Source: Halichondria panicea
Lineage: Eukaryota; Porifera; Demospongiae; Suberitida; Halichondriidae
Reading direction: 5' to 3'
Assembly: GCF_963675165.1 (NCBI RefSeq)
Contig: NC_087381.1
Coordinates: forward strand, 6,852,419 to 6,916,418
Length of the DNA: 64,000 bases
Numbering within the stretch: position 1 is the first letter of the stretch; every line of letters begins with the position of its first letter. The notes under the pieces are model-generated. The model made no database searches, was not told the DNA's origin, and saw only the letters and a program-made list of their open reading frames with translations. Below, piece by piece: positions 48,253 through 53,995 of this stretch. Position numbers and translations under genes: made by a program.

Positions 48253-51018
48253 TTATGTGCTGAGTACATTGTTGAGGGTACCATAGTCGTTGTCAATGGT
48301 GGGCTGGAGGGGATATACATACAGGGAGCAGGGTTAGTGTTGGTACAGGGAGCAGCTAGAGTGAAGTGTGGCTGGGCTGTAGCACTGATATAGTGAACGC
48401 ATTGAATGCTAGGTGAGGGTAACAGCATACAATGTAGCTAACAGTTATGACATAGTTGAAAGAGCTAAAGTAATGCACACAACTCGAGATGTACATACAA
48501 TGATGTACTTACTTGAGAGCTATCGTGTGTCCAAGCACCATCGACGAGGTACTTGTACTCATGTGTACCAGGAGGGAGGTCAACAGCTGTCTCAAACTCT
48601 CCACTGCCCCTGCACAGAGAGTCAGTATAACGTATCAGAGCACACACAGAGTCAGTATAACGTATCAGAGCACACACAAGTCAGTATAACGTATCAGAGC
48701 ACACACAAGTCAGTATAACGTATGAGAGCACACACACAAGTCAGCGATATCAGTGCCCAGCACGTACGTCATCACATCAGTACAGCTATAGCTAATGTAC
48801 TGGCATACGGGCAGGACACGGCTGTAATTATACCGACTAGTACTGGAATGTTATGCGAACATCAAACATAATTATTATACAAACTTAATTTGCAAAAATA
48901 AAATCGCAAAACCTAAACTAGTGCTGGTAAATACACACGATTCTTGCCAGAACACAGTAGTTAGATCGTAAAGGGTAAACTTTTCTGCTCATTTGGATTC
49001 TTCTCGCAAAGGTTTAATTTTCACCAGCAAAATTTCTAGTGATACAGTATATCAGTCAGTAGTTGCATGCATAGTGAGGTTACATACAGACACAGTATTA
49101 TATAGTGACAGTACCTTTGGTTGAGTGAGAGCTGTGTCCAGTCACTGAATGATCCCGCCACACTCACACTCTGTGGTGCTCCACTCCAGCGAAACCTCAC
49201 GTTCCTCTGTCTCACACCCTCACCACCCTCACACATCTCACGACCCTCAGGGGGTGGACGACCTTTGACCTCTTCTGCAAGGCCGCTAGCAACAAGGTCA
49301 GAGTTCAAACTCACACCCTGCACAAAATACAATAATAATTTAATATTAAAAATAATTATTATTATCCAATTTTTTACCACTTTGTGAGGAGACTGCATGA
49401 CAACGGTTGGTATGGAGATACCGTTTGTGTTGCTATGACAACCAGTGGGCTTCACAGAGAATACGGCCCAGTCGCCTTGATTAGTGACCGCCCTCAAACT
49501 ATCCCTCCCCTCATCTGACCAACCATCACCTGCAAGATAATAAATTTGATGATTTGGCAAATTTTACTGAAGATAGCCACATTTAAAACTGTTAAATTAA
49601 GTGTTTCAGTGGACACAACGTCATTGCTATAGTAGCCATACCTGAGACGCCAGATTAAAAACCAAGTTAAAAACCGCCAAGTCAGTTCAAATGGCTCATT
49701 CATCAACTATAATACTTGCCGAATTTCCAGTTACATAATATTGATGTATAACTCACCGCATGGTTTGATGTTGGCCAGTGCACAGGGAACACTGTACACT
49801 GTCTCCTCACAGAACTCATCACTGGAGGAGGTACACTATCACAACACACACACACCCACTCACGTTAGAGGCAAACACCCACACACCCACACTCACGCCC
49901 ACTCACATTAGAGGCTTTAATTGACTTGACGGTAGACACACAACAACTCCATAGTCCACCAGGCGAATGAGAGCGCTGCAATCTGATTGGTTGAATGAGA
50001 TCACATGACCTCTGTACCACTGTGTATTAAGGTGGGCGGCCACAGTATCACCACGTTGGAGAGTAGAAATACTGTCATCTGATTGGTCGTACACTGCGTT
50101 CATCCTCGCACACAGCTGACTCAGCAAAAGCTCGTAGCCAATCGGAATCACAAACAGTAAGTCAGGTGATTCAACATAAGCCACAGAGCAATCTGATTGG
50201 TCGTTCAGAACCACTTGATTAGTAATTGGTAGGAGGGGGTGCTGTTCGTCTCTATGGTAACGTAGTGAGCGAGGATATGGTGGGTGTGGCTTAGCCCACT
50301 GAGCATGCCCAGTAGACACTAGACTCTCGGCAATGTCCACATCCTTGCAAGGGAAACAGTGAGTAAGAGAGTGGTATCAACACATCGCTAACTGATCTCC
50401 TTTACAACAATCTTTTAGTTGTGATAATTCATTTTTTAAGCATTTAAAGTTAGCTATCAAAATACACCTGATTTAGAAAAAACATCCACTTTATATACTA
50501 TAATAAGCCATGCTTTTGTTCTGTAAATGGACTACTTCGACCAGACAGCAATCACTGATCTGAACACATCATTATACGCTTTTCAAAGAGCTACAAAATA
50601 AATATTTTAGTTGTGAAATTGGACCTCTTATGATCACTCAATGCTAGGTAGCTACGTTGGTTGGTTGACTACCTTATTGTTGGAGGTGTCAATGAGCTGT
50701 ATTTTGGTGGGCGTATTAGTGACGACCTTCGCCATGACAACCCGCCAGGCTGCACTGTGTGTGAGGTCCTCGAGAGCTGCTAGCCCACCCTCACTCCACA
50801 CACCACCTGCACACAAGGCACACAAGGCACACATCATTATCATCAACTTTCAAAACCTCGATTTAAAGTGGCACAGAGATTACGGTACTACAATAGGTAG
50901 CATTCTTACTGCACGTGGATGCATGACGTGTGCATGATTGTTCCATGATGCCTGCATGTGGGGAGAGCATGCTCTGCCCATGTACAAGGTATTGTATTAC
51001 AGTCAGTCAAACAGTCAG

Positions 51019-51051
<33 letters not shown>

Positions 51052-53268
51052 CATATTATGTGCTAGCATGTCATGTCAGGATGGACACACAATAGATGCA
51101 TTGTGGTCACTCTAGTCAGCTGGTGTGTGTGTGTGTGTGTGACCCTATGGCCTGCCTACCTGCTGGGATAATGGCGTCTAGTAGACACCTCACAGCCTGG
51201 GCCTTGAGAGTGCAGTACTCTGGTCTGTATAATAGGGGAGTGTGCACAGTATAGCCGGTATGTATAAACTTTTGCGGAAAGACAGTTTTGGAAGGGTTTC
51301 ATGGATTCACAGAATAGCAGCTTTTTGCAGCATGCATGTGATATTACATTCGTGGGTATAAATGTTCACGGTATAATCAGCGAAAACCACGAGCATACAT
51401 TTATACTCACGGAATACATTTATACCAGCTATACGATAGTATAGCTGGTCAAACAAGTTAACAGGAAGCCATGCAGTGACAGGGAACACCAGCCACACAC
51501 CATGGCTCCAGCCCACACCACACACACACACACACACCATGACTACAACCCACACCACACACACACCGCCCACACCACACCGCCCACACCATGACTCCAA
51601 CCCACACCACACACACACACCGCCTACACCACACCACACACACCTTAGTGGCCTGAGTGACCTGACGTTCACAGCAGCATAGTCACCATAGTCCAGGTAC
51701 ACGACCTCCACACCTCCACTACTCACACACGTCACACGCACACGATACCACTTGTCATCATGATCAAACGACGCCGCAAATAGATCACCAACATGTACAT
51801 CACCAGGGTAAACATCCTCCGTGTTGCCATAGTAACGCGTCATCTCATCGACCAATCCCTCAAGCTGTACGGGATCCTCTAATCCGATTGGCTGAACCCA
51901 AACACCGCCGTGTCCATCAACAGATGATACAAAAACTGGAATAAAATCACTAGAAATCACCAACTCCAAATCCCTAATATTAGAGACACCCTCTTGAGTG
52001 TGACTGGGTGGAGTGGGTCTTGATGGACGTGGTTTATCAATGGCTGCCACTATCTCTTGAATAAGAGCAACTGCGCGTGATATCTCCTCTGGTCCACCAA
52101 TCACCTCACACACACGCACAGCCTCATTACGACCACCAGTTACCATGGTTACCTGTCAGATAGTACAGTGATTAGTACATAATTATATTGTGTAGTCTAA
52201 TGATCGTACAGCTCAGGATAGCGGTGTTGAACCTAGCTAGCTATTACGATTTCGCAGTTTTCATTTTCATATGATCGATGCTCTAAATACGAAACGAAAT
52301 ATCCACCATACGAAAATAACCTATACAGTAAATTTGTGCGTTTGTTTAATTGGGATTGAAATATCCACGCATGACTTATTAGGGCACATCACTAGTAACG
52401 ACATACTGACCTTTGCACCCGACTCTCGCTGTATAGACTTGATGTTAGCGCCCTGGCGACCTATGACCTTTCCGACAGCACGCTGTGGTAGTGTCAGTGT
52501 GACCGTCTGCTGGTTCTTGCCCGAGGACAATCGCTCATCAACAGACGCTTGTATGAGTTCCTTAGCACTTGCCACACAACCAGGTCGCCCAGTGATGACC
52601 ACCACCTGCAAGAAGGGGGTGGGGCTTGTAGTCAAGGGGTTTAATTATTATGAGAGGTAGTCTAAAATTACTAAATGTGGAAGGGAAGACAGACAGTGTC
52701 ATAGTGTAGACACAACTAGGATGGCCTTTGATAGGAGCACTTACTACTAATACCTGGAAGACAGCAGCTATAGGACTGTATGCTGTGAGGCTATAGGACT
52801 GTATGCTGTGAGGCTAATGGATGATTGACACTGTACAAGCATTGATTGTGCATGGGAAATTGCATGTCTTTCAATTGCAAATTATAGGCTATTCGCAATC
52901 GAAAGAATGTTGAATTTGAAACAGTATATGAAAGTCACCATATTCGTACGAACCTTGTCCTTTGACCCCTGCTGATCCTTGAAGTGCACTCTTGCTCCAC
53001 TCTCCTCTTCAACCTGACGTATGCTAGTGCCATGGCGACCAATCACGTAACCAACGACGCTCTCCGGGACAATGAACTCTACACTGACGTTCTGCCTCAC
53101 ACGTTTCACACTATTGTCAGCCCGCCCACTCACGGGAGGGTCACGTCTCCACGCTCTCCACACCCACACACACGGGCACACTGCACACGCTATCATGAGA
53201 GCAGCAGAGGGCACAAGGAGCACTAAACCCACCAGATAACTGGGCACAGCTGGTACTAGTGTGTGCAT
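48253..53268 (-). CDS. TDRKH: KH-KH-Tudor-Tudor membrane-anchored protein fused to an AMPK-beta-type CBM48
   Basis: Eleven exons in transcript order: 53268-52954, 52605-52411, 52152-51644, 51224-51160, 50806-50673, 50343-49907, 49821-49757, 49529-49378, 49317-49115, 48609-48513 and 48303-48253. They join in phase to 740 residues. Hydrophobic N-terminus about 8-37 (outer mitochondrial membrane anchor in TDRKH/Papi). KH1 about 60-118 with GRHG; KH2 about 138-200 with GRQG. Extended Tudor 1 has YLDYGDY and the SN-like half VRCLLDAIIPAGGVWSEGG. Extended Tudor 2 has WYRGHVISF, LVDYGVVV and VPCALANIKPCGDGWSDEG. CBM48 about 663-740 has RFRWSGAPQSVSVAGSFSDW, HEYKYLVDGAWTHDSSQP and YGTLNN. W684, K711, W718 and N735 match the glycogen-contacting W/K/W/N of AMPK beta. 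The SN-like end of Tudor 2 and the CBM start share one exon. Confidence 0.88.
48610..48745 (+). repeat. ~30-bp minisatellite, 4 copies
   Basis: Unit built on GTCAGTATAACGTATCAGAG plus CACACACA. It lies immediately upstream of the TDRKH-like exon at 48609, in the intron. The copies do not include the acceptor itself. Confidence 0.85.
51246..51450. repeat. MITE-like segment in the TDRKH-like gene
   Basis: Starts CAGTATAGCCGGTATGTA and ends near TACCAGCTATACGATAGTAT. The internal sequence is rich in TTTATAC and CACGG words shared with the 57041-57248 element. It probably belongs to the same family with ACCGTATAGC-type ends. Confidence 0.5.
52205..52325. repeat. Dispersed repeat (ACAGCTCAGGATA family)
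   Basis: Shares TACAGCTCAGGATAG, a TTGAACCTA-like segment and ATGCTCTA with 42170-42235, 54735-54840 and 59400-59480. Two of the copies are preceded by CGTATTCTAAATATTCATAC. It looks like a short interspersed element present at least four times in the window. Confidence 0.65.
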
Positions 53269-53995
53269 GGATGGTAGGACATTTTCGAGGCACTTCAATT
53301 TTGTGGAATGTCTATAAAAGTATTTTTCGTTGCATAAATTTCGCGCTATTTGGTCAAATAATGCTGTGCATTTTGTTAAATGTTGAGGATTGCTAACCCA
53401 CGAAAACAGTGAAAATTAAGCGCTTTGAAAATGTTGTGCTATATACGGTAATTACGTGATTACTGCATCCATGCAGAATGAATGTTAGTCATGTGCTGTC
53501 AGTGTATTCACACATACACCGTATGCACTGCATGCATCTCATCTAGCTAGCTCATAGTGTACTGTGTTCTATAGTATAGTAGTGTGACTGCTCCCTCACC
53601 TTTATTCAACAACCCCATTATATGAGACCTCTTCAGTACAGTTCAGAGCTTGCAGGCTATATTCTGATGACTACCTGGAATCACTGCAGCAGCCAGACTA
53701 TGTACACTAGCAAACAATGCACTCCATGTGAACACAGCAAGCTAGCCATGTGGCATTAACCGCGGCTCATATTCAGAACACAACATGAGCCCCTCCCCCT
53801 CCAGACACACTCTATGTTTAGCCGCCCCCTCTTGTGGTCACTTGAGATTTGGCCGCGGTTTATTATTTCCCAGAGAATGGATTTAGCCGCGGCTCTAATT
53901 ATGGTCCTCAGATTGGCCGCGGTCTATTTCAGTAACTCATCACACACCACAACGCACTATACACACATGCACAGACACACTGTTCATAGTCTAGA
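53269..53995. other. Spacer between the TDRKH-like gene and ECH1
   Basis: No gene seen. At 53755-53935 there are four CCGCGG-containing segments (ACCGCGGCTCATATTCAG, GGCCGCGGTTTATT, AGCCGCGGCTCTAA, GGCCGCGGTCTATTTCAG) in alternating orientation. These form inverted repeats related to CCGCGG words near 43610 and 43645. Confidence 0.5.

Follow-up and report, generated by a model that had tools for sequence, protein, structure and literature searches.

A TDRKH/Papi-like protein of the sponge Halichondria panicea that ends in an AMPK-beta-type carbohydrate-binding module, and its possible link to glycogen

In animals, TDRKH is a core scaffold of PIWI-interacting RNA (piRNA) processing, on which the small RNAs that silence transposons are processed at mitochondria. 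The beta subunit of AMP-activated protein kinase (AMPK) combines a carbohydrate-binding module (CBM) with an alpha/gamma-binding domain that lies C-terminal to it, and the plant proteins LSF1 and SEX4/DSP4, to which a similar module is attached, have a role in starch. TDRKH and Papi act on the mitochondrial surface, where the Tudor domain binds PIWI and the KH domains bind the piRNA precursor, and a C-terminal auxiliary domain of Papi decides whether the KH domains bind RNA, as described in PMC8938449. Here we describe a gene of the demosponge Halichondria panicea (order Suberitida) whose predicted product carries features of both the piRNA scaffold and AMPK beta. The gene lies in a stretch of 64,000 nucleotides, the window (G000:C5:6852419-6916418), of a 131 Mb genome in 39 contigs, and we file it, from its sequence, as a TDRKH/Papi relative with an apparently new C-terminal module.

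When joined on the sequence, the 11 exons on the minus strand (53268-48253) give 740 codons and a stop, with no internal stop, and the domain order of the resulting protein is a hydrophobic N-terminus, two KH domains, two extended Tudor domains and a C-terminal AMPK1_CBM. All three Pfam families score far above their cut-offs: KH_1 (E 1.6e-32) and TUDOR (E 1.7e-39) each match two stretches, and AMPK1_CBM (PF16561) covers residues 664-739 (E 1.4e-22; 80.1 bits, cut-off 26.8). An NCBIfam scan returned only sub-cut-off matches, in the KH region. By PDB sequence search, Tudor 1 matches TDRKH structures (best 1.6e-30) and the C-terminal 78 residues match CBM structures of AMPK beta-1 (best 1.8e-20).

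Like TDRKH (TDRD2) and Papi, the sponge protein has an N-terminal hydrophobic segment, two KH domains and then a TDRD2/Papi-type extended Tudor domain, as indicated by Pfam, the PDB match and structure comparison. Unlike them, it has a second extended Tudor domain and a C-terminal CBM48, whereas the C-terminal tail of Bombyx Papi and of mouse Tdrkh is predicted to be disordered (PMC8938449). It shares with AMPK beta an AMPK-type CBM with the W/K/W/N contacts; in contrast to AMPK beta, KH and Tudor domains stand in place of the remaining beta subunit, nothing follows the CBM with which the protein ends, and no alpha/gamma-binding domain is among the 10 Pfam families listed for the joined protein. 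The attachment of an AMPK-type CBM to an unrelated protein recalls plant LSF1 and SEX4/DSP4 (sequence matches of 1.6e-9, 8.6e-7 and 1.2e-6), although these, unlike the sponge protein, are phosphoglucan or glucan phosphatases by their PDB naming. We found no Tudor-CBM48 protein described in the open-licence literature that we searched, which fits the statement in a preliminary description of this locus that none was known.

The splicing on which this architecture depends is confirmed by an independent gene model, because the NCBI protein 'tudor and KH domain-containing protein homolog isoform X2 [Halichondria panicea]' (P0001, 717 aa) is identical to the 740-residue joined protein from residue 30 to the end, including the CBM. 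GT...AG borders occur at 10 of the 10 introns, and the acceptor of exon 7 reads ...CTCCAG before TGATGAG at the exon start (49821). Both models, that of the preliminary description and that of NCBI, are predictions rather than RNA reads, so one could suppose that two neighbouring genes had been joined by error. However, exon 9 encodes, in one open frame, the last part of Tudor 2 together with the first part of the CBM, as the preliminary description had pointed out, and we add that the CBM spans exons 9, 10 and 11; the same join is present in three probable transcripts of relatives, and its start in a partial protein of Geodia barretti. These observations make a gene-model artefact extremely unlikely, and we rejected it.

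The three relatives with a complete CBM are P0002 (746 aa, 65% identical to P0001), P0004 (753 aa, 42%) and P0022 (506 aa, 45%), each with a hydrophobic N-terminus, two KH domains, Tudor (a single one in P0022) and a CBM over the cut-off (77.4, 70.3 and 76.9 bits, respectively). The longest contigs that hold them (2377, 2961 and 2066 bases) are too short for an intron-bearing gene of this kind, and the three are therefore probably transcripts; their placement in trees suggests that they come from sponges. The partial G. barretti protein (P0006) ends in VTLEWVDGRSVSVAGSFSEWEPVPLSRT, which corresponds to the first strands of a CBM (Pfam 13.4 bits, below the cut-off), and both P0006 and the annotated Ephydatia muelleri protein P0005 share the hydrophobic N-terminus. 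In P0022 and the partial P0006, one extended Tudor domain runs directly into the CBM, so that the CBM occurs even without Tudor 2, and the second Tudor domain appears to have been gained or lost among the CBM bearers. Taken together, Pfam, the PDB sequence matches, the NCBI model, the probable transcripts and the one-Tudor fusions in P0022 and Geodia agree with the earlier identification of the gene as TDRKH/Papi-like with an AMPK-beta-type CBM48, joined in phase over 11 exons.

The architecture, for which a search in other sponges had been suggested, was recovered in P0002, P0004, P0022 and, as its start, in Geodia, but not in P0005, which has three KH and two Tudor domains and no CBM. The CBM or its start is thus present in five of the six sponge or sponge-like proteins that reach past Tudor 1 (P0001, P0002, P0004, P0005, P0006 and P0022); P0007, P0009 and P0023 end before the CBM region, and P0008 (434 aa) lies outside the comparison. 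No CBM is listed by Pfam for six other KH-plus-Tudor proteins, five of them from named non-sponges (P0010, P0011, P0012, P0021 and P0025) and the sixth P0020, with P0020, P0021 and P0025 covered by direct scans as well. Among precomputed Pfam annotations, PF16561 is listed for 3 of the 20 matches from one protein search (P0001, P0002 and P0004) and for 4 of the 16 from another (the same three and P0022). Both searches scored only the candidates with the most shared words, and the named matches did not include Amphimedon, calcareous, glass or homoscleromorph sponges, about which these counts say nothing.

In a tree of the KH-to-Tudor region, which includes mammal, bivalve and Trichoplax relatives, the five CBM bearers stand apart from Ephydatia and the other animals (support 69), and in a tree of CBMs the four complete TDRKH modules stand apart from AMPK beta and other CBMs (support 81). 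Support is modest in both cases. Because P0002 groups with H. panicea in the first tree (100) and nearer to P0004 and P0022 in the second (81), and because the CBM tree has very long branches, we rely on neither for details. The simplest reading of the distribution would be a single gain of the CBM within demosponges after the split from the Ephydatia line; alternatively, the CBM may have been lost in Ephydatia, or a 3' exon missed in the Ephydatia gene model.

Conservation within the module bears on what it may do. The residues W684, K711, W718 and N735, correctly placed by the preliminary description, align to W100, K126, W133 and N150 of AMPK beta-1, whose roles in glycan contact are described in PMC4032982, and each of the four complete CBMs has equivalents of all of them, so the glycan face is conserved. 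Between H. panicea and P0004 the CBM (57% identity) is better conserved than either Tudor 1 (45%) or Tudor 2 (31%), with KH1 at 61% and KH2 at 48%; the corresponding values against P0002 are 80% for KH1, 72% for KH2, 63% for Tudor 1, 58% for Tudor 2 and 67% for the CBM. This conservation, like the retention of the CBM in the one-Tudor protein P0022, argues against the CBM being a passenger that is kept by fold constraints and has no role in the piRNA pathway. The CBM-less Ephydatia protein would suit such a passenger, as would the other CBM48-type genes in the H. panicea genome, which show that the module was available for shuffling, but we consider this explanation very unlikely.

R83 of AMPK beta lies on the side facing the kinase. 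Its equivalent is kept in only one of the four TDRKH CBMs yet is present in H. panicea AMPK beta, which hints weakly, from this residue, at loss of the kinase face. The combination of a variable R83 position with invariant glycan contacts speaks against the CBM serving as a protein-docking surface that binds no sugar, for example for a kinase of the AMPK family (AMPK or Par-1/MARK). That Par-1 phosphorylates Papi (PMC8938449) would fit such docking, but on balance it is an unlikely role. The equivalent of S108, a residue whose role, like that of T148, is described in PMC6274970, is also kept in one of the four modules; because it is not kept in H. panicea AMPK beta either (His in the alignment, beside an exon junction joined by eye), S108 provides no test between these readings.

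The explanation that we favour, with a probability of about 0.48, is that the protein is a mitochondria-anchored piRNA scaffold whose CBM48 tail would bind glycogen and thereby place piRNA processing at glycogen stores. By analogy with TDRKH/Papi, the N-terminal segment would anchor the protein on mitochondria, Tudor 1 would recognise PIWI through its methylated arginines, and the piRNA precursor would be held by the KH domains; by analogy with AMPK beta, the CBM would bind alpha-glucan. In the 740-residue form, a hydrophobic window of 19 residues starts at residue 12 (Kyte-Doolittle mean 2.58, a test of hydrophobicity only), and the predicted model of P0022 has an N-terminal helix at 6-38. 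The ASF...WYR...VYLDYGD motifs of Tudor 1, at putative positions of the aromatic cage for dimethylarginine, look kept when an alignment is judged by eye. Because the glycan-contact residues are kept, glycogen tethering or energy sensing, as raised in the preliminary description, is plausible. The least certain steps are that mitochondria, nuage and glycogen would co-localise in germ or stem cells and that glycogen occupancy might modulate RNA binding. In demosponges other than H. panicea, mitochondria are described as surrounding a nuage-like granule in the oocytes of one species, and glycogen is reported in nurse cells or blastomeres of others (PMC5805295).

Several observations weigh against this explanation. 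The best hydrophobic window of isoform X2 reaches 0.93, which gives no predicted N-terminal transmembrane (TM) segment, so a fraction of the protein may stay off mitochondria, with an anchored form and a soluble one perhaps existing side by side. The aromatic cage of Tudor 2, judged in the same way as that of Tudor 1, is less complete. Within the CBM, residue 146 (Leu in AMPK beta-1) is aromatic, Tyr or Phe, in all four modules, and T148 is kept in three and replaced by Gly in P0022. The Ephydatia protein that lacks the module also belongs here. The predicted model of the H. panicea CBM is weak (block means 26-64); that of the P0022 CBM scores 65-85 over residues 421-480, and its last 25 residues, including the N150 equivalent, are under 50. 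For either model, no carbohydrate-binding fold is among the structure-comparison matches listed; these lists are filled by Tudor and KH rows, and this absence is therefore not evidence against a CBM.

A further possibility is that the CBM is a regulatory replacement of the insect Papi tail and would fold onto the KH and Tudor domains or release them, so that glycogen or another ligand would switch RNA binding rather than anchor the protein. The auxiliary domain of Bombyx Papi occupies the corresponding position behind the Tudor domain; binding of piRNA precursors by the KH domains depends on it, and Par-1 controls it at Ser547 (PMC8938449). In AMPK, the binding of glycogen to the CBM alters the contact between CBM and kinase (PMC6274970). 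However, according to PMC8938449, the Papi tail is disordered and is not a CBM, so that the likeness is one of position only, and Ser547 is missing in mouse and Drosophila, with a far shorter tail in Tdrkh. We regard such a switch as somewhat unlikely. In the glycogen-tethering explanation that we prefer, the CBM48 would likewise sit at the C-terminal place of the Papi auxiliary domain, where its likeliest role would be to bind glycogen and position the scaffold, and the next to gate RNA binding.

Nowhere else in the genome do KH and Tudor matches to P0001 occur together (44 of 44 candidates scored), and a paralogue without a CBM was not found among 37 matches to P0001. We raise, tentatively, the broader idea that demosponges link transposon defence to energy storage through a sole TDRKH with a glycogen reader, such that in germ and stem cells piRNAs would be made on glycogen-docked mitochondria, or only in the presence, or only in the absence, of glycogen. 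A conserved glycogen-binding module on the only TDRKH copy found would be a direct physical link from transposon silencing to carbohydrate reserves. An otherwise vague question, whether energy stores influence the making of small RNAs in the germline, becomes testable. The locus would also represent a marked domain gain within sponges, in which the Tudor repeat comes and goes and the CBM stays.

The features of the locus are collected in Table 1. An enoyl-CoA hydratase-like gene lies upstream on the same strand and a thioredoxin-like gene downstream on the other strand, and neither would include the CBM exons.

Table 1. Exons of the TDRKH-CBM gene in the window, with the protein parts that they encode.
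Feature	Position	Strand	Basis
Alternative first exon, NCBI isoform X2 (MGLLNK...), spliced to 53180; without hydrophobic N-terminus	53600..53618	-	P0001 N-terminus MGLLNKVCPCV read on sequence
Exon 1, aa 1-105: predicted TM segment and most of KH1	52954..53268	-	Pfam, Kyte-Doolittle
Exon 2, aa 106-170: end of KH1, start of KH2 (GRQG loop)	52411..52605	-	Joined protein, Pfam
Exon 3, aa 171-339: end of KH2, linker, core of extended Tudor 1	51644..52152	-	Pfam, PDB sequence match, structure comparison
Exon 4, aa 340-361: extended Tudor 1	51160..51224	-	Joined protein, PDB sequence match
Exon 5, aa 362-406: extended Tudor 1	50673..50806	-	Joined protein, PDB sequence match
Exon 6, aa 407-551: end of extended Tudor 1 and first part of extended Tudor 2	49907..50343	-	Pfam, structure comparison
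Exon 7, aa 552-573: extended Tudor 2	49757..49821	-	Joined protein, agrees with P0001
Exon 8, aa 574-624: extended Tudor 2	49378..49529	-	Joined protein, P0001
Exon 9, aa 625-691: end of extended Tudor 2, linker, start of CBM with W684; join inside one exon	49115..49317	-	Pfam, P0001
Exon 10, aa 692-724: CBM with K711 and W718	48513..48609	-	Pfam, alignment
Exon 11, aa 725-740 and stop: end of CBM with N735	48253..48303	-	Pfam, alignment

Elsewhere in the genome, the 37 matches to P0001 are distributed as nine on C5, which are the TDRKH-CBM gene itself, 22 in two long multi-Tudor frames on C2, three KH-only matches on C10, two short Tudor matches on C4 and C10, and one CBM match on C11. A separate AMPK beta gene, named by its sequence, lies on C6 (L001: VFRWDNGGEEVYLCGSFNNW), and 13 Piwi-domain matches, some of which will be Argonautes, lie on C2, C6 and C8. 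Another gene with an AMPK-type CBM, distinct from AMPK beta, lies on C11 (L003; G000:C11:3075366-3075604), and its module is 53% identical to the TDRKH CBM over 57 positions. On G000:C13, an open frame of 384 residues (L002, 637-1791, minus strand) has an AMPK-type CBM followed by what by eye is an esterase-like domain. Four short AMPK1_CBM matches, two of them with an in-frame stop, lie within about 20.5 kb (L005-L007; G000:C16:2984243-3004739) and may form a tandem family. Finally, two very long open frames on C2 (G000:C2:2984137-2992935 and 2505401-2512402; 4162 and 2989 codons, respectively) contain numerous Tudor matches and represent giant multi-Tudor genes that seem to have few introns or none.

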